Of a DNA stretch of 35,868 bases, positions 1-35,868 are shown piece by piece. Below the pieces are notes generated by a model that had not been told where the DNA came from, searched no databases, and saw nothing but the letters and a program-made list of their open reading frames with translations. This DNA comes from a virus: the IMG/VR virus record IMGVR_UViG_3300025120_000214, positions 1-35,868 of that record. The stretch is one strand, 5' to 3'. Each line of letters opens with the position of its first letter. Position 1 is the first letter of the stretch. The position numbers and the translations under genes are program-made.

Positions 1-107
1 GTATCATATCTTGTCTCACTACTGATTGCTGAAGAGGTAATAGCCGACTGCAGCCATAGCAAGCAGAGTAGAACCACCAACGATCCAACCAAGTAGTTTA
101 AAATCAT
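1..107 (-). CDS. Small membrane protein, partial (left allele of the 82-aa gene)
   Basis: The start codon ATG is at 107-105 and the frame stays open to the window edge, giving about 35 residues beginning MILNYLVGSLVVLLCLLWLQ. This is one strongly hydrophobic membrane-spanning or signal-anchor helix. The frame lies inside the 3' end of the 160-aa gene (19-501), and the complete copy at 32790-33038 has the same nested arrangement. The rest of this allele is cut off. Function is unknown. Nested short membrane genes beside a holin and endolysin are often lysis accessories, but no spanin signature is clear here. Confidence 0.4.
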   Translation of the reverse strand, partial: MILNYLVGSLVVLLCLLWLQSAITSSAISSETRYD

Positions 108-501
108 TAATCATTTCTTTCCGTCGTTTTGACTTGGCTGCCAATCGTTTCTTTTCTGCGTCAGCATAATCTTTGATGCGTTTCTTTCGCTCGTCTTGTA
201 TCCCCTTGAAAGTGCCATGCCCAAACCTTTGATCTATAAGTACAGAAACTGTGTAGAGTTCTTCTTCAGCAAGTTTTGCATCTATGGTATCGGACGCAAT
301 TGAACTTATAGAAAAACTACCTGGTGCAGCTTTCTTTGTCTTTGCACTGTCGATCCTTGCCTTGCCATCCAATAGCTGATCGATACTTGATGCAATATCT
401 CGCACACTATTCGCAGTACCAATGCCACTTTTAATAGCATCGACCGCACTCTTGAATGCACTCGCAGCCATGATTGCTTCACCAACCCCAAAACCAAGCA
501 T
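19..501 (-). CDS. Late membrane protein with C-terminal TM helix (left allele, 160 aa)
   Basis: This 160-aa protein begins MLGFGVGEAIMAAS. Its small-residue N-terminus is followed by charged, probably coiled-coil helix around residues 75-130 (KRIKDYADAEKKRLAAKSKR). It ends with one clear membrane helix at about 136-157 (LLGWIVGGSTLLAMAAVGYYLF). The allele at 32950-33441 has the same two ends with a diverged middle. Families like this occur in marine phages next to lysis or tail genes and have no established function. The position between tail-appendage and lysis genes on the circular map fits a membrane-acting accessory or an anchored virion protein. The gene is real because it is conserved in two diverged copies. 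Confidence 0.8.
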   Translation of the reverse strand: MLGFGVGEAIMAASAFKSAVDAIKSGIGTANSVRDIASSIDQLLDGKARIDSAKTKKAAPGSFSISSIASDTIDAKLAEEELYTVSVLIDQRFGHGTFKGIQDERKKRIKDYADAEKKRLAAKSKRRKEMINDFKLLGWIVGGSTLLAMAAVGYYLFSNQ

Positions 502-520
502 GGTTCCCCCTAGTCGTTTA

Positions 521-682
521 CTAATTTATTTGAAATAATACTCCAATGAGCATTGTGATGACGGCTCCCATTCCAATATAAAGAATGGCTTCCAATCTCT
601 TTAAGCGAAAGAACAGCTCCTTAAACTGAATGTTTACCTCTGTCTCCAGTTTTGTAACACGTTGATCTAATGCTTTGGTCAT
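521..682 (-). CDS. XhlA-like small coiled-coil/TM protein (left allele, 53 aa)
   Basis: The frame from ATG at 682 to TAG at 521 encodes 53 residues beginning MTKALDQRVTKLETE. The N-terminal half is a heptad-like charged helix. The C-terminal half is one membrane helix (YIGMGAVITMLIGVLFQIN). This layout matches the haemolysin XhlA-like family often found in phage lysis cassettes; the match is by architecture only. Its ATG overlaps the stop of the 137-aa gene (TAATG), so translation is probably coupled. The right copy at 33461-33622 has identical gene ends and a diverged centre, which supports real coding. Confidence 0.7.
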   Translation of the reverse strand: MTKALDQRVTKLETEVNIQFKELFFRLKRLEAILYIGMGAVITMLIGVLFQIN

Positions 683-1095
683 TAGCTAGGCTTAGTAGGG
701 AATGTAACAGAAGACATATCTAGCGACCCATCGGCTGATAGCTTTGGTGATGCACTTGCTGGCAAGTCACGCAATGATTGTCTATAGGTCTTCCAGTTAT
801 CGGCAAGAGTTACATCAGAGTTTGCCATCCAATCACACTCAGCTAATAGCCTATCTCGCTCAACTCTAAGCAATCGCATAGGCTCTGCATTTGTAAGCTC
901 TGTCTTTTTGTCAGATACAGCTTTCCAAGTTGTGCCAAAGTCACTAGGCGTTGAGCTTTCAATCGCACTTCCATTGCTGTCTGCTCCAGTTACTTTACGA
1001 AACATAGCGTTGAACTCTGCTTCACTTGTAGGCTCACCCCTGAGTACCCACTCTTTGATACCTAATGCTGATATTGCTTGTGATATTGTTGTCAT
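682..1095 (-). CDS. Tail assembly chaperone-like protein (left allele, 137 aa)
   Basis: The C-terminal half carries the pattern RDRLLAECDW...NWKTYRQSLRDLP. This is typical of the Phage_tail_APC family, small tail-assembly chaperones found beside tail-fibre genes. The N-terminal half (GIKEWVLRGEPTSEAEFNAM) is conserved in the right allele at 35249-35662, while the segment just after the chaperone core motif differs. The ATG overlaps the stop of the upstream 169-aa gene by ATGA. It probably helps fold or attach the small appendage proteins encoded directly upstream. The family call rests on the motif and the neighbours. Confidence 0.7.
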   Translation of the reverse strand: MTTISQAISALGIKEWVLRGEPTSEAEFNAMFRKVTGADSNGSAIESSTPSDFGTTWKAVSDKKTELTNAEPMRLLRVERDRLLAECDWMANSDVTLADNWKTYRQSLRDLPASASPKLSADGSLDMSSVTFPTKPS

Positions 1096-1601
1096 TGTTT
1101 TATCTCCTTTAAGGTAATAGTCGTTCCTTGCCTACAATCTTCACTAGACCTATCGCCTAAAAATAAAGTATTTGAAGTATTTGACCTTATTTGCAATTTG
1201 TATACTGTAGCTGAAGTTGTTCCTGGGCTGTCAAGAAACTCAATATGTAATTGGTGCAACTCATCTGCTGAACTATTATACAATGTCCTTGTTGATGATT
1301 GAGCTTTTGCACTCGTTGGCTGTCCGATATTTGTTGAACCTCTTACAATATTAAATGAAGCTATTCTTGAGCCTGTATTCATTCCATAGGCACCACTAAC
1401 AGTAACAAGAACTTTGCTCGTTGAAAATTTTGGTGAAATAGTTAAGGTTACTCCAGTTACATCGACAAAGCTCGTTGACGCTGATTGAAAATGGTCATCA
1501 ACTTTAGTAGTGCTTAGAACTTGCACCACATGACCAGCTGGCATAGCCACAGTTCCAGACGTTGTCTTACCCTGAATTGTATCGACTTTTAACGTAGACA
1601 T
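1092..1601 (-). CDS. Small tail appendage / putative receptor-binding protein (169 aa)
   Basis: The N-terminus MSTLKVDTIQGKTTSGTVAM is a recurrent start in marine phage fibre-like proteins (M-x-TLK-x-x-T-x-x-G). Residues after about 22 (GHVVQVLSTTKVDD, then STSFVDVTGVTLTISPKF) are beta-rich and paralogous to the gene at 1630-2157. Both end in a similar E-I-x-Q. A Ser/Thr/Gly-rich composition fits an exposed trimeric beta-structure. The right allele lacks this gene: there the chaperone abuts the 175-aa-type gene directly. It is therefore a mobile cassette in the appendage locus. Receptor binding is inferred. Confidence 0.6.
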   Translation of the reverse strand: MSTLKVDTIQGKTTSGTVAMPAGHVVQVLSTTKVDDHFQSASTSFVDVTGVTLTISPKFSTSKVLVTVSGAYGMNTGSRIASFNIVRGSTNIGQPTSAKAQSSTRTLYNSSADELHQLHIEFLDSPGTTSATVYKLQIRSNTSNTLFLGDRSSEDCRQGTTITLKEIKQ

Positions 1602-2716: not shown

Positions 2717-4378
2717 TTATCCCAAAGCTATAGCTAATGCAACCGAATTTGCTTCTGCCGTTGCTTCTGTTGTTGCACCAATATCACTCACTACTTCTGA
2801 TGCACTTCTACCCTCAATCGATGTACCATTTACTCTTAGAAAATCATCGTCAGCAATCCCACTTGTTGCGACCAAAACATTGCCATTTGATATACCAGTT
2901 GATAGTGTTGCCGTTGTTGTAATGGCAGTACTATTTAATGTCATAGCATCAGCTTCTAATGTTCCGTCAATATCTACGTTTCCAGATATATCAAGACTAG
3001 CTGCTGCAATCTCACCACTAGCCGTTAATGAGGTTATATTAGGATTTGCACCCGACCCTGCTAAACTTGCCATATCAGCAATAACAGAACTTGTAGCAAG
3101 TAAGTTCATGTCTGCAACGATGTCACTTGTGGCAAGAGTATTGAGGTCACTAACGATATCTGATGTCGCTAGGGTATTGATGTCTGAAACGATATCGGAT
3201 GTTGCTAGGGTATTAAGGTCACTAACAATATCACTTGTTGCTAGTGTATTCATATCTGAAATTACATCACTTGTTGCTAGTAATGCCATATCAGCTATTA
3301 CATCAGCATTTCCTAATAAAGCCATATCAGCAACAACATCAGCAGTTCCTAACAAAGCCATGTCTGTAATCACGGCACTTGCAGCAAGGGCAGAAATATT
3401 TGAGTTTGCACTTGCTACCGTGTTGATATTTGTTTGTTCAGAACTTGTTGGCTTAACATCTATCCAAGCCGATCCGTTATAGACCTTCATGCCTGTACCA
3501 TCGGTCTTAAAATATAAGTCACCAGCGTCTAAATTTGACGATGGATCAGAACTAGCTGCGCCATGATATTGACCTGTGAAGGTTGATAAAGATGTTGCTG
3601 CTGCGGTTGCGCTGCTTGCCGCTGCCGTTGCACTACTGGCTGCCGCTGTTTGTGCCGTGGTTGATGATGCAGCATCCACGATTAAAGACCATTTCGCGCT
3701 ATCTGTATTGGTGGTCAGAGGTTGCGATCCAGAACTTGTGTGAGCCGTGATACATATAAAGATATTATTTGTGCTAGTATCTTTCACCAGGTCACGAACA
3801 ACGTAACTGGTACTAGCTCCCCAATTGCCTTTGAGCGTTCCAATCTCTTGTGTAACCGCAAGCTCTCCAGACCCATTAAAAGACAATAACTTGTTTGCTC
3901 GATCTGTTGATGAGGTAGTAAACTCTGTTGAGGTCATCGTGTTAGTACGACTAATCTTTATAGATCTATTCAACTCTTCGTCGTGCTGTTGTATCATGCG
4001 CACCACTTTGTCGAAATTTGTTTCAAGCGTTTCAGCTGGGAACGGATCATTAGCAACTAGATTTAATGCCTGTGTGTTTGCTAGCTCCGATCTTATAACA
4101 ACTGTTTCGCCGGACGCCGGTCTAAAATCACTTGATGAATAATGAGCATCACTTGTGGTTCCAGTATTGAATTTAAATAAAACTGTGCCGCCGCTCGATA
4201 CTCCAGCACCAGTAACGACATAATGCGTATCTAATGTTTTAACTGTCTCCGACCCTGTTGATGACCGAATGATAACTGTCAGATCTGCATTTGCGAAAAT
4301 TGGGAAATCATAGGCAAAAGAATGAGTCGATCCGTTTCCCGAATAGCTTTTCGAGATTGTAGTAGTGCTAATTGTCAT
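2717..4378 (-). CDS. Tail fibre with T7-type N-terminal attachment domain (553 aa)
   Basis: Residues 1 to about 150 match the T7 tail-fibre N-terminal domain, which joins the fibre to the tail: YSGNGSTHSFAYDFPIF near the start, then FPAETLETNFDKVVRMIQQH. An Ala/Ser-rich stalk (about 235-265) and a common fibre segment (LDAGDLYFKTDGTGMKVYNG) follow. Then come eight 12-residue repeats (340-435) with consensus LNTLATSDIVSD. The C-terminus is short (ending VALAIALG), with no obvious receptor-binding tip or chaperone domain. Host recognition may therefore be delegated to the small appendage proteins encoded downstream. SD GAGG precedes the ATG. Confidence 0.88.
   Translation of the reverse strand: MTISTTTISKSYSGNGSTHSFAYDFPIFANADLTVIIRSSTGSETVKTLDTHYVVTGAGVSSGGTVLFKFNTGTTSDAHYSSSDFRPASGETVVIRSELANTQALNLVANDPFPAETLETNFDKVVRMIQQHDEELNRSIKISRTNTMTSTEFTTSSTDRANKLLSFNGSGELAVTQEIGTLKGNWGASTSYVVRDLVKDTSTNNIFICITAHTSSGSQPLTTNTDSAKWSLIVDAASSTTAQTAAASSATAAASSATAAATSLSTFTGQYHGAASSDPSSNLDAGDLYFKTDGTGMKVYNGSAWIDVKPTSSEQTNINTVASANSNISALAASAVITDMALLGTADVVADMALLGNADVIADMALLATSDVISDMNTLATSDIVSDLNTLATSDIVSDINTLATSDIVSDLNTLATSDIVADMNLLATSSVIADMASLAGSGANPNITSLTASGEIAAASLDISGNVDIDGTLEADAMTLNSTAITTTATLSTGISNGNVLVATSGIADDDFLRVNGTSIEGRSASEVVSDIGATTEATAEANSVALAIALG
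3074..3361 (-). repeat. 36-bp tandem repeats encoding a 12-residue fibre repeat
   Basis: Eight 36-bp units encode successive copies of a 12-aa motif, from MALLGTADVVAD to MNLLATSSVIAD. The units are not identical: the central four are close copies (LNTLATSDIVSD type) and the outer ones have drifted. The fixed spacing of Leu, Asp and Val/Ile fits a regular fibrous stalk. Repeats like this change length easily by slippage or recombination. Confidence 0.85.
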
Positions 4379-22507: not shown

Positions 22508-22831
22508 TTAGGGAGCGTCTTTTGCGCTGAAGTCAATATCGTCTTTTTCTTTCCAGGCATTGCCGCCTTGGATTTTCCGTATCGTCCTGGCATGTGTCTC
22601 CTCCTCAAATTTAATTAACGCTTTTAAATACCACTCGGCTTTCTTGAGATCCTCGACGCCATTCTTATCCTGATAACGCCACATATACTTTGCAATCGTG
22701 CCTTTACAATACGACCCAAAGCCATCACCCAATAACTCCTTTATCGAGTCAATACACTCCGTCTTGCCTTGCGTATAATGCACCGGCTTATTCACCGCAT
22801 CATGCGGAATTAAACGCTCTATCTTTTTCAT
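22508..22831 (-). CDS. DUF3310 family protein (107 aa)
   Basis: The start chosen is ATG at 22831 (MKKIERLIPHDAVNKPVHYT). It overlaps the methyltransferase stop as ATGA and is preceded by AGGACGAAT. The core NKPVHYTQGKTECID, IAKYMWRYQDKNGVEDLKKA and WYLKALI is the DUF3310 signature, common in phages and sometimes loosely called nucleotide kinase. Function is not established. Right after the stop is a strong SD-like AAGGAG with no good start codon. Confidence 0.85.
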   Translation of the reverse strand: MKKIERLIPHDAVNKPVHYTQGKTECIDSIKELLGDGFGSYCKGTIAKYMWRYQDKNGVEDLKKAEWYLKALIKFEEETHARTIRKIQGGNAWKEKDDIDFSAKDAP

Positions 22832-23364
22832 ATTCGTCCTATAAATCGCGTTTCCGTAGTCTGGGTATATTTGGAGAAGAAATACCAACAAACATTATCC
22901 TTACCGGTGTGTTTACTATCTGGGATCCACTTCACGCGACCAACAGACACTATCTTCCGGCAATACTTAATCAACTCCGAGGCTTGCTTGGTGTGCATCC
23001 AATCCGCATCAAATAGCAGCCATGTAGGTTTTAAAGATATAAAATACTCAATCATAGGATGCAGCAAATCACGGCGCCAAGGAGGGTTCGTAATTATCGC
23101 ATCAGCCTCTAAGATCTTCATCTCATCCAACTCCAGTGCATCTACTCGATACACATCCTGTCTACGCGGCTCTATATCACTCGCATAGCAGCATATAACA
23201 CCAGCCAGGGCTAACATGTCCACCAACTGCCCATTGCCAGCACACGGCTCACAAAACAGCTTTATCGATGGCGTATCCAAATGATACAGCAGCGGCTTTA
23301 CCGCCTCCGGTGGTGTCGGATAATAATCGCGCTCAACACGATCGAAACTACTTCTTTTACCCAT
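22828..23364 (-). CDS. DNA adenine N6-methyltransferase-like protein (178 aa)
   Basis: The protein has a YPTPPEAV start region (15-22), the SAM-binding motif CEPCAGNGQLVD (38-49) and the catalytic-type NPPW (93-96). These define class I amino-methyltransferases that methylate adenine N6. At 178 aa it lacks a clear target-recognition domain, so it is a small solitary phage enzyme. It may protect phage DNA from restriction or mark packaging sites. SD GAGG precedes ATG 23364. It is the first gene after a 248-base non-coding gap downstream of terS. Confidence 0.78.
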   Translation of the reverse strand: MGKRSSFDRVERDYYPTPPEAVKPLLYHLDTPSIKLFCEPCAGNGQLVDMLALAGVICCYASDIEPRRQDVYRVDALELDEMKILEADAIITNPPWRRDLLHPMIEYFISLKPTWLLFDADWMHTKQASELIKYCRKIVSVGRVKWIPDSKHTGKDNVCWYFFSKYTQTTETRFIGRI

Positions 23365-31550: not shown

Positions 31551-31573
31551 TGGTGCGGGTGATAGGACTTGAA
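31551..31573 (-). other. attP core, 23 bp matching a tRNA 3' end
   Basis: On the minus strand this reads TTCAAGTCCTATCACCCGCA followed by CCA: the T-loop, T-stem 3' half, acceptor strand, discriminator and CCA of a tRNA. The T-stem 5' half (should be ATAGG) is not present, so it is only the att core. The acceptor (5' side GCGGGTG in the host tRNA) suggests a leucine-type tRNA, but this is inference. Integration would restore the host tRNA 3' end. Confidence 0.85.
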
Positions 31574-31590
31574 ACCCCATTCTACCCAAT

Positions 31591-32789: not shown

Positions 32790-33038
32790 TTAGATTTCTT
32801 CCGGACACTCTTCTGTTTCGATTTTAATAGCTTTGGTTTTTCCATTTTCGGATATGTAGACGCAGTAGTATTCTTTAAGACTTCTTCCTGGGGATTTTTT
32901 CTTAACACGTTTAACCAGGCTATAATTCGGTGTATCATATCTTGCCTCACTACTGATTGCTGAAGAGGTAATAGCCGACTGCAGCCATAGCAAGCAGAGT
33001 AGAACCACCAACGATCCAACCAAGTAGTTTAAAATCAT
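32790..33038 (-). CDS. Small TM/secreted-type lysis-locus protein (82 aa)
   Basis: Residues 1-25 (MILNYLVGSLVVLLCLLWLQ onward) form a membrane or signal segment. The remainder is polar (YDTPNYSLVKRVKKKSPGRS, ending IKIETEECPEEI). The start is 89 bases inside the 3' end of the 163-aa gene, and the TAA is directly before the next ATG. The second allele is truncated at 1-107. A competing frame (32786-33019) looks less protein-like. Overlap plus lysis context recalls spanins, but no lipobox or coiled coil proves it. Confidence 0.5.
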   Translation of the reverse strand: MILNYLVGSLVVLLCLLWLQSAITSSAISSEARYDTPNYSLVKRVKKKSPGRSLKEYYCVYISENGKTKAIKIETEECPEEI

Positions 33039-33441
33039 TCATCATTTCTTTCCGACGTTTTGCCTTGATTGCAATTCGTTTCTTTTCAGCATCCGCGTAT
33101 TCTTTTATGCGCTTTTTTCGCTCGTCTAAAATGTCTTGGAAAGTTGAACTTCCAAATCTCAAATTTATTAAGGTTTTAATTTCTTGCAAATTTTCGTCTG
33201 CAATTCGTGCATCGATAGTGTCACTTGCAATCGATTTGAGAGAGAAGGAACCTGGTGCAGCCTTTTTATTTTTAGCTCTGTCTAATATCGACTTGCTATC
33301 AAGTAACGTATCTATTTGTGAAGCAATATCCCTAATATCATTTGCTGTAGATACACCGCTTTTTATCGCATCCACAGCGCCTTTAAATGCCTTGAAAGCC
33401 GTGGCAGCAGCCATGACTTCACCAACCCCAAAACCAAGCAT
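32950..33441 (-). CDS. Late membrane protein with C-terminal TM helix (right allele, 163 aa)
   Basis: It starts MLGFGVGEVMAAATAFKAFK and ends with the same TM helix as the left allele (LLGWIVGGSTLLAMAAVGYY). The middle differs (SKSILDRAKNKKAAPGSFSL). Charged helix with likely coiled coil precedes the TM. Keeping both ends while the middle varies suggests the middle contacts something variable, or that recombination happens at gene ends. Function unknown. Confidence 0.8.
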   Translation of the reverse strand: MLGFGVGEVMAAATAFKAFKGAVDAIKSGVSTANDIRDIASQIDTLLDSKSILDRAKNKKAAPGSFSLKSIASDTIDARIADENLQEIKTLINLRFGSSTFQDILDERKKRIKEYADAEKKRIAIKAKRRKEMMNDFKLLGWIVGGSTLLAMAAVGYYLFSNQ

Positions 33442-33460: not shown

Positions 33461-33622
33461 CTAATTTATTTGAAATAATACTCCAATGAGCATTGTGATG
33501 ACGGCTCCCATACCGCCAATCAAAACCATCTCTAATCGTTTCAATCGATAAAAGATTTCCTTAAACTGGATGTGGTTCTCTGTCTCCAGTTTTGTAACAC
33601 GTTGATCTAATGCTTTGGTCAT
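33461..33622 (-). CDS. XhlA-like small coiled-coil/TM protein (right allele, 53 aa)
   Basis: ATG 33622 to TAG 33461 encodes MTKALDQRVTKLETENHIQF, a short coiled coil, and a TM helix (GGMGAVITMLIGVLFQIN). The first 15 and last 17 residues match the left allele, and only the central section differs. The ATG overlaps the stop of the 124-aa chaperone-like gene. Lysis-associated by architecture and location. Confidence 0.7.
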   Translation of the reverse strand: MTKALDQRVTKLETENHIQFKEIFYRLKRLEMVLIGGMGAVITMLIGVLFQIN

Positions 33623-33996
33623 TAGCTATAAGGACTTTCGCCTAGAGTGGACGTATCCCACGCTGCTTTCAGTTTTGCTATTGTATCTGCACTTGTTATA
33701 GCTGAATTAGCTGGTGCATCTCGCAATGCTTTTTTCTTTGCTACAGACGCAGTTTTAGCCGTAGCATCATCAGCCTCTAATGCCTTCATGTAGACTACAT
33801 CTTCAGCATCAAGTAAGGGCTTTCTGACTTCCCTGATTTTATCCTTAAAGAGTACTTTAGCAGCCGTCATGTCTTCAGCCATAACGCTACCACTTAGTTT
33901 CCAAGCATTTCTGAAATGCCTGTCAGAAGGTATAGTTGCTGTTGAAGCATCTATGCTTGCACCATCCTTGTCAGTTACAAAAGTCTTAGTTGCCAT
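33622..33996 (-). CDS. Tail-assembly-chaperone-like protein, second type (124 aa)
   Basis: The N-terminus (MATKTFVTDKDGASIDASTA) is followed by RHFRNAWKLSG, and later FKDKIREVRKPLLDAEDVVY and KKKALRDAP. The RKPLLDAED...ALRDAP pattern resembles the tail-assembly chaperone type common in cyanophage and other marine phages. It differs from the 137-aa chaperone that both alleles share. The right allele therefore encodes two chaperone-like proteins, perhaps one per appendage set. AGGAGG precedes the ATG. Confidence 0.6.
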   Translation of the reverse strand: MATKTFVTDKDGASIDASTATIPSDRHFRNAWKLSGSVMAEDMTAAKVLFKDKIREVRKPLLDAEDVVYMKALEADDATAKTASVAKKKALRDAPANSAITSADTIAKLKAAWDTSTLGESPYS

Positions 33997-34012
33997 GTTA
34001 GTTCCTCCTATA

Positions 34013-34462
34013 TTAAGCAGCTATTTTCCAAGCATTTCGCCATGTTCGTTGTTCTGGCAGTTGCTCTTTCTTACAGATTACAAGTCTAGGTTTATTAGAC
34101 TTCTCATATTCTCTCCACAACTTCTCAGGTAAATCCTTCATAATTAAGAGCTCTATTGCTTCGCTTTCTGTTAGGGCATCAATAGGTTTTGTATCGTGAA
34201 GAAGATATCCTCTGGTATGCTTTACAAAGTCAGGCTTTGCTTCGTCCTTCTTGAGTTCCCAATACACCCACACAGGTGGTAGTATGCCACCATTCAATGC
34301 ACACGCCATCCAGTTAGGGTCAGGGTGTGTTACCTTTGCCGGTTCATCTAGGTTGTCAGGGTCTTCCCATACAATGCAGAACTCACTTCTAAATGGCTCT
34401 AGGTTTTGCTTTGCCCACCCTAGTCTATCCCATAAATGTGTTCCTTGAAATTCTGGTGTCAT
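34013..34462 (-). CDS. Unknown tail-locus protein (149 aa)
   Basis: This acidic, Trp-rich protein (FCIVWEDPDNLDEPAKVTHP, then PVWVYWELKKDEAKPDFVKH) ends with RTWRNAWKIAA, a motif like RHFRNAWKLSG in the following 124-aa gene. The shared N-A-W-K segment may bind a common target. Its ATG overlaps the stop of the 131-aa gene by ATGA. No family was recognised. It occurs only in the right allele. Confidence 0.5.
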   Translation of the reverse strand: MTPEFQGTHLWDRLGWAKQNLEPFRSEFCIVWEDPDNLDEPAKVTHPDPNWMACALNGGILPPVWVYWELKKDEAKPDFVKHTRGYLLHDTKPIDALTESEAIELLIMKDLPEKLWREYEKSNKPRLVICKKEQLPEQRTWRNAWKIAA

Positions 34463-34854
34463 GCTAAATCTCCTCCAAATGCTGCAGCGTGAACAGTATC
34501 AGATAAATTGTGGCTGTCGGTATAAGAAAATTGTGAACAGCCTGTAGTTGTTAAGTCTTGAGGAGCAATCACTGCATGACCATAGTTACCATCAATAGCA
34601 ATGGCTAAATAGTTATCATCAGCTATGTATGGATTGGCATGAGCGTAGTTAATTTTGCCTGTAGATGCGTCTGTTACACTACTCAGGTTAAGTGTATCTC
34701 CAGAAGTATTATCTGATTGTTTAAAAATAACACAAAATCCTTTTATCAAACCCTCTTGCACGTTCGTAGTGGTAACATTCCCTGCACCTGCAACAATAGT
34801 GATGCTGTTCTTTGCGTCTACTCCCTCTAGGGCATTTGTTCTTAGTGTACTCAT
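34459..34854 (-). CDS. Small appendage protein, MSTLRTN type (131 aa)
   Basis: The start MSTLRTNALEGVDAKNSITI matches the marine-phage appendage start (M-S-T-L-K/R-x-N/D). It is paralogous to the 129-aa neighbour (both have TTTN-x-Q-x-GL and T-x-ATG or ASTG segments) and both end in GDLA. The coding end GGAGATTTAGCATGA also contains the next gene's SD and start, and the same design recurs at the 129-aa gene. Surface virion role inferred. Confidence 0.55.
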   Translation of the reverse strand: MSTLRTNALEGVDAKNSITIVAGAGNVTTTNVQEGLIKGFCVIFKQSDNTSGDTLNLSSVTDASTGKINYAHANPYIADDNYLAIAIDGNYGHAVIAPQDLTTTGCSQFSYTDSHNLSDTVHAAAFGGDLA

Positions 34855-35240
34855 GCTAAATCTCCATGTACTATACCACTCTTAGTAGCACTGTCCTCTG
34901 CACTACCTCCGTTATTTATACTCATTAACTCAAAATTACCTGTTGTTTTCTGGTCACTATTGTCAACAGTTCCGTCTGACCTAGATGATGCTCCTACTGC
35001 AAAGTCATCATTGTTCATATTATTATTAATTGCTACTTGAGTTCTGCCTGTAGCTGTGTCTGTCAAACCTGAAACATTAAAACTATCCTTTGCCACAGTA
35101 GTTGATGTTCCTGTAATATTTACCCAACATTTAGCCAACCCCTGCTGTAAGTTGGTAGTTGTAGAGCCTGACTCTCCTGTGACGGCAATAGACCCTGCTG
35201 TTGATGTGCCTGTGAGTGTGTTTGTTTTGAGAGTTGCCAT
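34851..35240 (-). CDS. Small appendage protein, MATLKTN type (129 aa)
   Basis: This protein starts MATLKTNTLTGTSTAGSIAV and is paralogous to the 131-aa gene. It has TTTNLQQGLAKCWVNITGTS, then STTVAKDSFNVSGLTDTATG, and ends HGDLA. It is beta-rich and exposed-type, found between the 131-aa gene and the 137-aa chaperone, only in the right allele. Likely a gene duplicate supplying variable tail decorations. Confidence 0.55.
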   Translation of the reverse strand: MATLKTNTLTGTSTAGSIAVTGESGSTTTNLQQGLAKCWVNITGTSTTVAKDSFNVSGLTDTATGRTQVAINNNMNNDDFAVGASSRSDGTVDNSDQKTTGNFELMSINNGGSAEDSATKSGIVHGDLA

Positions 35241-35248
35241 TGTTTATC

Positions 35249-35662
35249 CTATGAAGGTTTTGTGGGGAATGTAACAGAAGACATATCTAACGACCCATCA
35301 CTTGATAGCTTTGGTGACGCACCACTTGGCAAGTCTCTTAGCTTAGTTCTATAACTTTTCATATCGCTTGATTGCGTAACATCACCTAACGCAGTAAAAT
35401 CTGTCTCTGCGAGAAGTCTATCTCGTTCTACACGAAGAAGACGCATTGGCTCTGCGTTCGCTAACTCTGTTTTTTTATCGCTGACAGCCTTCCAAGTTGT
35501 GCCAAAGTCACTAGGGGTTGAGCTTTCTATAGCAGTTCCATTATTGTTGCCTGTTATTTTACGAAACATAGCGTTAAACTCTGCTTCAGTTGTCGGCTCT
35601 CCTCTGAGTACCCATTCTTTAATTCCTAATGCAAACAGACCATCTGATATACCTATTGTCAT
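35249..35662 (-). CDS. Tail assembly chaperone-like protein (right allele, 137 aa)
   Basis: The N-terminus MTIGISDGLFALGIKEWVLR and the middle (GTTWKAVSDKKTELANAEPM) closely match the left allele. The chaperone core RDRLLAETDF...KSYRTKLRDLP is present with altered residues. Its ATG overlaps the stop of the upstream 175-aa-type gene by ATGA. In this allele nothing lies between the two, while the left allele has the 169-aa gene inserted. Confidence 0.7.
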   Translation of the reverse strand: MTIGISDGLFALGIKEWVLRGEPTTEAEFNAMFRKITGNNNGTAIESSTPSDFGTTWKAVSDKKTELANAEPMRLLRVERDRLLAETDFTALGDVTQSSDMKSYRTKLRDLPSGASPKLSSDGSLDMSSVTFPTKPS

Positions 35663-35868
35663 TGAGCTATCTCCTCTACTTTTATTGAACTGGTATAATT
35701 AGAGCCATCATTAATTCTAAATCCCCCACTATCTGAGCTAGTAAAATTTTGCATTTGTAGCTTTATTGTTTTTGCGTTTGTGTTTGAAGCACTTACAGTT
35801 ACTAGTTTATGCAATCTTGCAAAAATAGCTATTGATGATGAACCACCAATATCAATCATCATTTCCCT
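35659..35868 (-). CDS. Appendage protein, partial (right allele of the 175-aa gene)
   Basis: The C-terminal part ends EEIAQ and is cut by the window edge. The bases match 1630-1839 with only a few changes, including one codon change that makes an Asp in MMIDIGGSSSIAIF instead of Ala. The frame continues outside the window. Confidence 0.65.
   Translation of the reverse strand, partial: REMMIDIGGSSSIAIFARLHKLVTVSASNTNAKTIKLQMQNFTSSDSGGFRINDGSNYTSSIKVEEIAQ

Follow-up and report, generated by a model that had tools for sequence, protein, structure and literature searches.

Gene content of the two locus copies

The window analysed here, i.e. the whole virus record IMGVR_UViG_3300025120_000214 (35,868 nt), encodes terminase, capsid, head-tail adaptor, tail proteins, integrase, repressor and endolysin; at both of its ends lies, on the minus strand, a copy of a locus positioned between tail-fibre genes and lysis genes. 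The copies form direct repeats of 77-96% identity, far beyond chance, and the distance from the left to the right copy round the window amounts to 32.9-34.0 kb; compared with the 35.9-kb record this means that the contig exceeds one genome and that its ends overlap. The best reading of this arrangement is that the window ends represent two alleles of one locus, the contig running once round a circular genome plus the overlap.

At the left end (all genes of both copies are on the minus strand) a 553-aa tail fibre gene (2717-4378), the product of which resembles tail proteins and fibres in its N-terminus, is followed by a conserved 119-aa gene upstream of the array (2345-2704) and a 63-aa gene (2154-2345) with resemblance to the C-termini of long tail fibres. 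The left allele comprises, in order of transcription, the genes of a slot-A tip protein (1630-2169; 179 aa from a TTG start, shorter from the ATG at 2157), a 169-aa slot-C tip protein of predicted TNF/C1q-like type (1092-1601), a 137-aa protein (682-1095), the 53-aa anchor protein (521-682) and a 160-aa protein (19-501). The order at the right end is 179, 137, 129, 131, 149, 124, 53 and 163 aa: the slot-A gene is cut by the contig end, its C-terminal part remaining as an open reading frame of 69+ aa (35659-35868), and is followed by the 137-aa gene (35249-35662), a 129-aa tip gene (34851-35240; phrog_11355 tail fibre, 1e-13), a 131-aa tip gene of the same family according to phrog_11355 and alignment (34459-34854; tag MSTLRTNALEG), the genes of a 149-aa protein (34013-34462) and its 124-aa partner (33622-33996), the 53-aa gene as the first gene downstream of the tip array (33461-33622) and a 163-aa homologue of the left 160-aa gene (32950-33441). 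Both the 129- and the 131-aa protein terminate in GDLA. The two 137-aa proteins score above the curated Pfam cut-off of PF16778 (48.2 bits at the left and 37.0 bits at the right versus 26.6) and are identified by this match as tail assembly chaperones. The open reading frame list thus bears out the gene-content difference noticed in the sequence-only reading, namely four genes (124, 149, 131 and 129 aa) that separate the 53- from the 137-aa gene at the right, with nothing in their place at the left, as well as a 169-aa gene upstream of the 137-aa gene at the left without counterpart at the right.

The 149-aa protein has a homologue in phage HMO-2011 at 70%. Its C-terminus (TWRNAWKIAA, 34013-34050) shares a motif with the N-terminal part of the 124-aa protein (HFRNAWKLSG, 33880-33930), possibly the trace of an old duplication or split. 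In the 53-aa anchor protein a membrane helix appears to follow a coiled coil, as it does in XhlA-type lysis proteins, and no Pfam match was obtained; by its shape the gene looks like a lysis gene.

The slot-A gene is 98% identical in DNA between the alleles up to its stop codon, where similarity ends, and the 137-aa genes differ by approximately 25%. The difference continues past the 53-aa gene, a point missed in the sequence-only reading: the 53-aa and the 160/163-aa genes also form a mosaic, in which divergent DNA alternates with identical blocks of 51, 95 and 94 nt, and the exchanged stretch extends into the lysis genes. Such a mosaic fits better with recombination between relatives than with slow divergence. 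The divergent tract ends on the 32929 side of 32929-33441, and from 32,928 downward the identity of the backbone to an independent record, L027, is unbroken. This record carries the left allele (99.5% identity over window positions 1-1509) joined to the holin-endolysin-att-integrase region of the window with 1 mismatch in 7.1 kb. No record other than the window was seen to combine this backbone with the right allele, and a 33-mer spanning the 124/53 junction of that allele gave no match among other viral contigs. A role of the 53-aa gene as a DNA-level linker was considered and rejected, its synonymous sites varying normally among relatives.

The phage is best explained as temperate, marine and podovirus-like; a megablast search with 10 kb of its backbone gave no match among isolated phages. 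Between the endolysin and integrase genes lies an att-like tRNA 3' end (31551-31576, minus strand), for which the collection of bacterial and archaeal genomes contains a single exact match, located in the alphaproteobacterial genome AG-414-C21. The match (L285:5121-5474) adjoins the 3' end of a related endolysin gene (81% DNA identity over 355 nt) and is a probable prophage remnant; because both the tRNA 3' end and the endolysin end match this genome, the host is probably a marine alphaproteobacterium. Prophages with the 53-aa family were not found in the same collection (genome_contigs). Elsewhere in the window (22828-23364), a 178-aa DNA methyltransferase-like protein matches only positions 201-367 of the 458-position phrog_799, possibly a shortened gene.

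Tags, tips and variation among relatives

The proteins of the locus begin with short slot-specific N-terminal tags (GDSMSKLQVETISHTNN in slot A, MASILKTDKIEGVTASGTVQMPAGHVVQ in slot B and MSTLKVDTIQGKTTAGTVAMPAGHVVQ in slot C; further tag classes are the 129-type and the 131-type), which are followed by variable tips. In the predicted model of the 169-aa protein the tag is of low and the tip mostly of good confidence; the tip resembles the TNF-like lectins PLTL (9ib7; Z 14.4, 122 residues, 2.1 Å) and BC2L-C (Z 13.3). The profile of the family aligns with the C-terminal end of the phage protein orf22 (PDB 9efk, E 6.8e-17; a literature search for this entry found no paper). A TNF/C1q-like lectin with jelly-roll fold is therefore predicted. 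For the 129-aa tip an H-type-lectin-like beta sandwich is tentatively predicted from modest values: tailspike receptor-binding domains were the best matches (Pam1, Z 8.8), H-type lectins and pyocin fibre tips the weaker ones (SLL-2, Z 6.8; Helix pomatia agglutinin, Z 5.6), and 71 of the 72 members of this tip family match a tail fibre family. Judged by fold and gene context, the proteins are putative receptor-binding tips, probably sugar-binding.

Two types of tip end predominate, GDLA and EIxQ, and they differ in the gene that follows. Downstream of EIxQ tips either a PF16778 chaperone (16) or another tip (15) was encountered, never the 149-aa gene, whereas GDLA tips preceded the 149-aa gene in 25 cases and a further tip in about 40, but never PF16778; the two groups were sampled differently, and the right allele of the window has both pairings in one locus. 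These associations suggest that the 149/124-aa pair comprises accessory proteins or chaperones of the GDLA tips.

The 53-aa gene is encoded by 68 records. Members of the near group agree in the upstream order fibre-119-63 and in what lies downstream of the 53-aa gene, and the stretch in between varies: automatic classification distinguished 14 arrangements among the 26 relatives in which the locus could be followed all the way from the fibre genes to the 53-aa gene. A fixed gene order in all relatives, which had been named as an argument against a swap, was thus not seen, and the modular, hypervariable character of the tail-tip locus stands. The exchange of tips may change attachment specificity or host range. 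In L031 and L034, which share the 53-aa anchor, the genes upstream of it are entirely different (~155-375 aa), and no tags can be recognised in them.

Other marine phages very often carry the 149- and 124-aa genes (at least 600 stretches each); the 149-aa gene is always paired with the 124-aa gene, the two being adjacent in 132 of 133 loci, nearly all of which are devoid of the 53-aa anchor. Occurrence of the right-hand cassettes in unrelated phages only, likewise named as contrary evidence, applies to most cases, yet L014, a member of the same clade, contains 131-149-124 together with the anchor. On a different backbone, L231 shows the order of the right allele (179-137-129-131-149-124). Since the 149/124 block is common in other phages, mostly without the anchor, and given the gene orders of L231 and L014, the right allele looks like the import of a gene block common elsewhere.

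Exchange of whole genes at ATGA borders only, as originally envisaged, was not supported by the comparison: the clearest exchanges are sub-genic, near-identical tips being located behind different tags. When only the tips were compared, 671 of 1203 similar pairs were located behind different tag classes, nine of them with 78-98% identity (~7 events without redundant pairs). Among these are L010/L013 and L148/L155 (98% each), L013/L040 (95%), L162/L163 (94%), L159/L186 (88%) and L041/L233 (83%). In these six pairs the first 60 tag columns have a DNA identity of 27-57% and the tip mostly one of 87-100%; beyond the stop codon five of the six drop to ~60% or less (L041/L233 stays higher). As identity is low in the tag and high in the tip, tips and not only genes are exchanged, with a border that these alignments place in a hinge ~25-40 residues into the gene. 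As expected of an exchangeable C-terminal domain, identical N-terminal parts with unrelated C-terminal parts were observed, and the reverse.

The DNA of the 131-type tag (34735-34854) retains ~90% identity at fourfold sites, with the neighbouring 149-aa genes down to 57% there; either homogenising recombination or a constraint at the DNA level might account for this conservation. A general role of tag DNA as a homogenised recombination handle was not upheld: it applies to the 131-type only (fourfold identity ~0.9 whatever the divergence of the 149-aa gene), the 129-type being unclear.

Gene joints and embedded ribosome sites

According to the sequence-only reading, all joints consist of ATGA overlaps with built-in Shine-Dalgarno signals. 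About half of them do: five joints are ATGA with a 4-nt overlap (35659-35662, 34851-34854, 34459-34462, 1092-1095 and 2154-2157), two are TAATG with a 1-nt overlap (at 33622 and 682), and the remainder are gaps of 8-28 nt, namely 8 nt between the 137- and 129-aa genes, 16 nt between the 149- and 124-aa genes, 19 nt between the 53- and 160/163-aa genes and 28 nt between the 179- and 169-aa genes. The part of the claim that concerned the ribosome sites is retained, because these are embedded in tip ends such as GGAGATTTAGCATGA and GAGGAGATAGCCCAATGA, most of which encode GDLA or EIxQ.

GDLA has GGA as its Gly codon in 85 of 86 cases versus 382 of 1136 elsewhere in the same genes, the adjacent Asp codon varies (GAC 51, GAT 35), EIxQ has GAG as its Glu codon in 25 of 29 cases versus 19 of 110 elsewhere, and an ATGA overlap is present at 93 of the 116 tips with GDLA or EIxQ ends versus 2 of the 37 without. 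P values for these contrasts are indicative only, owing to the relatedness of the sequences. The codons are thus constrained, and the near-fixation of GGA while the neighbouring Asp codon varies points to a constraint acting on GGAG rather than to mere recent descent. The DNA of a tip end thus also provides the gene behind it with its ribosome site and start.

Exchange of tips and alternative explanations

Taken together, the locus is most plausibly an array of receptor-binding tips that are exchanged by recombination, two alleles of which occur on one backbone (probability roughly 0.78). Each small tip protein would combine a short constant tag, probably a docking peptide of its slot, with a hinge and a variable lectin-like tip, and each run of tips would have its own type of partner downstream, PF16778 in the case of TNF/C1q-like tips and the 149/124-aa pair in that of H-type-lectin-like ones. 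Co-infecting phages would swap single tips or whole runs of genes by recombination, presumably homologous, with the tags and hinges, the 3' ends of the tip genes and parts of the 53- and 160/163-aa genes as crossover blocks; the conserved 3' end of a tip gene would encode the last residues of the protein and in addition equip the following gene with ribosome site and start, and translation could survive the exchange for this reason. It is conceivable, at somewhat below even odds, that the locus goes further and constitutes an addressable cassette array that operates without dedicated recombinase, its slot tags, movable tips, hinges and ribosome-site/start blocks serving as protein parts and homology handles at the same time. 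If so, a pool of receptor-binding tips would be shared across marine phage lineages.

The right allele might instead have arisen by misassembly, the cassette of another phage having been joined to the backbone at a shared stretch of a phage that possesses the left allele only. The confinement of the right allele on this backbone to the window, with L027 showing the left one, would agree with such a join, and shared blocks of 94-95 nt would permit it; however, the end of the right 179-aa gene (98%) and the right 53- and 163-aa genes are those of this phage group, the alternation of identical (51-95 nt) and divergent blocks is not produced by a single misjoin, and L014 of the same clade has the 149/124 genes with the anchor, which renders this origin unlikely. 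Improbable to a higher degree is a tandem of related prophages in one chromosome, each with one allele, the window spanning the att site in between: two locus copies on one contig and the presence of integrase, repressor and att-like tRNA 3' end are in line with it, but host DNA and a complete tRNA are absent from the window, and the part beyond att is identical to the left-allele record L027 instead of representing a second, divergent phage.

The exchange itself could be disputed if the alleles had diverged by mutation and gene loss from an ancestor with all genes. A difference of ~25% between the 137-aa genes would be compatible with old divergence; the flanks of 98-100% identity around an unalignable locus, the alternation of identical and divergent blocks and the nearly identical tip DNA behind different tags make this explanation very improbable. 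Hardly any weight can be given to a dedicated diversification system (diversity-generating retroelement or site-specific inversion/shufflon), with which the locus has in common that tail proteins vary in their C-terminal parts: entire domains of unequal length are exchanged rather than individual adenine positions, all genes have the same orientation, the tip genes lack a flanking inverted repeat pair of at least 16 nt, and neither reverse transcriptase nor invertase was detected among the proteins scanned, a subset of the open reading frames.

An exchangeable tip array relates to several known systems. Mizuno et al. (2014, PMC3909814) describe metaviromic islands as host-recognition loci of marine phages that contain genes of tail fibre, C1q-like and lectin-like type, and the present locus is alike as a hypervariable host-recognition region in otherwise near-identical marine phage genomes: the difference is confined (left allele of L027, 1 mismatch in 7.1 kb), and recognition genes are present (tail fibre families, predicted lectin-like folds). 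Those islands were defined by read recruitment and gene content, whereas the locus of the window is resolved to tag, hinge, tip, movement between slots and embedded ribosome sites. Smug et al. (2023, PMC10684548) document shuffling of receptor-binding domains across families as well, mostly for large single fibres or spikes, in contrast to several small proteins with slot-specific tags in the window. The Alteromonas phages A5, V22 and P24 have shared modules in which a fibre and its cognate chaperone travel jointly between distant marine phages (PMC10579305); one large fibre and one chaperone are involved there, as opposed to small tips and two chaperone types in the array of the window. Metaviromic islands and tail-fibre mosaicism are known, and slot tags, tips moving between slots and embedded ribosome sites, which were not found in the available parts of these three sources, themselves a part of the literature, would tentatively appear to be new.

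The array offers a concrete sub-genic route by which the host-recognition islands of abundant ocean phages could change on a genome that is otherwise clonal, and the trading of tips between slots and unrelated viruses may allow a virus to change the cells it attaches to. The combination of slot tag, exchangeable lectin tip and coupled translation provides a testable rule that could mark tips in metagenomes, in which they are mostly hypothetical proteins at present. A cultured isolate, the Puniceispirillum phage HMO-2011 (GU557055.1), belongs to another lineage and differs from the window by its 55-kb genome, a higher number of slots and the absence of a known alternative allele; like the window it contains an array with tags, GDLA ends with embedded ribosome site (GGAGACCTAGCATGA), a C1q gene and the 149/124 pair, and the architecture is thus not an artefact of metagenome assembly.
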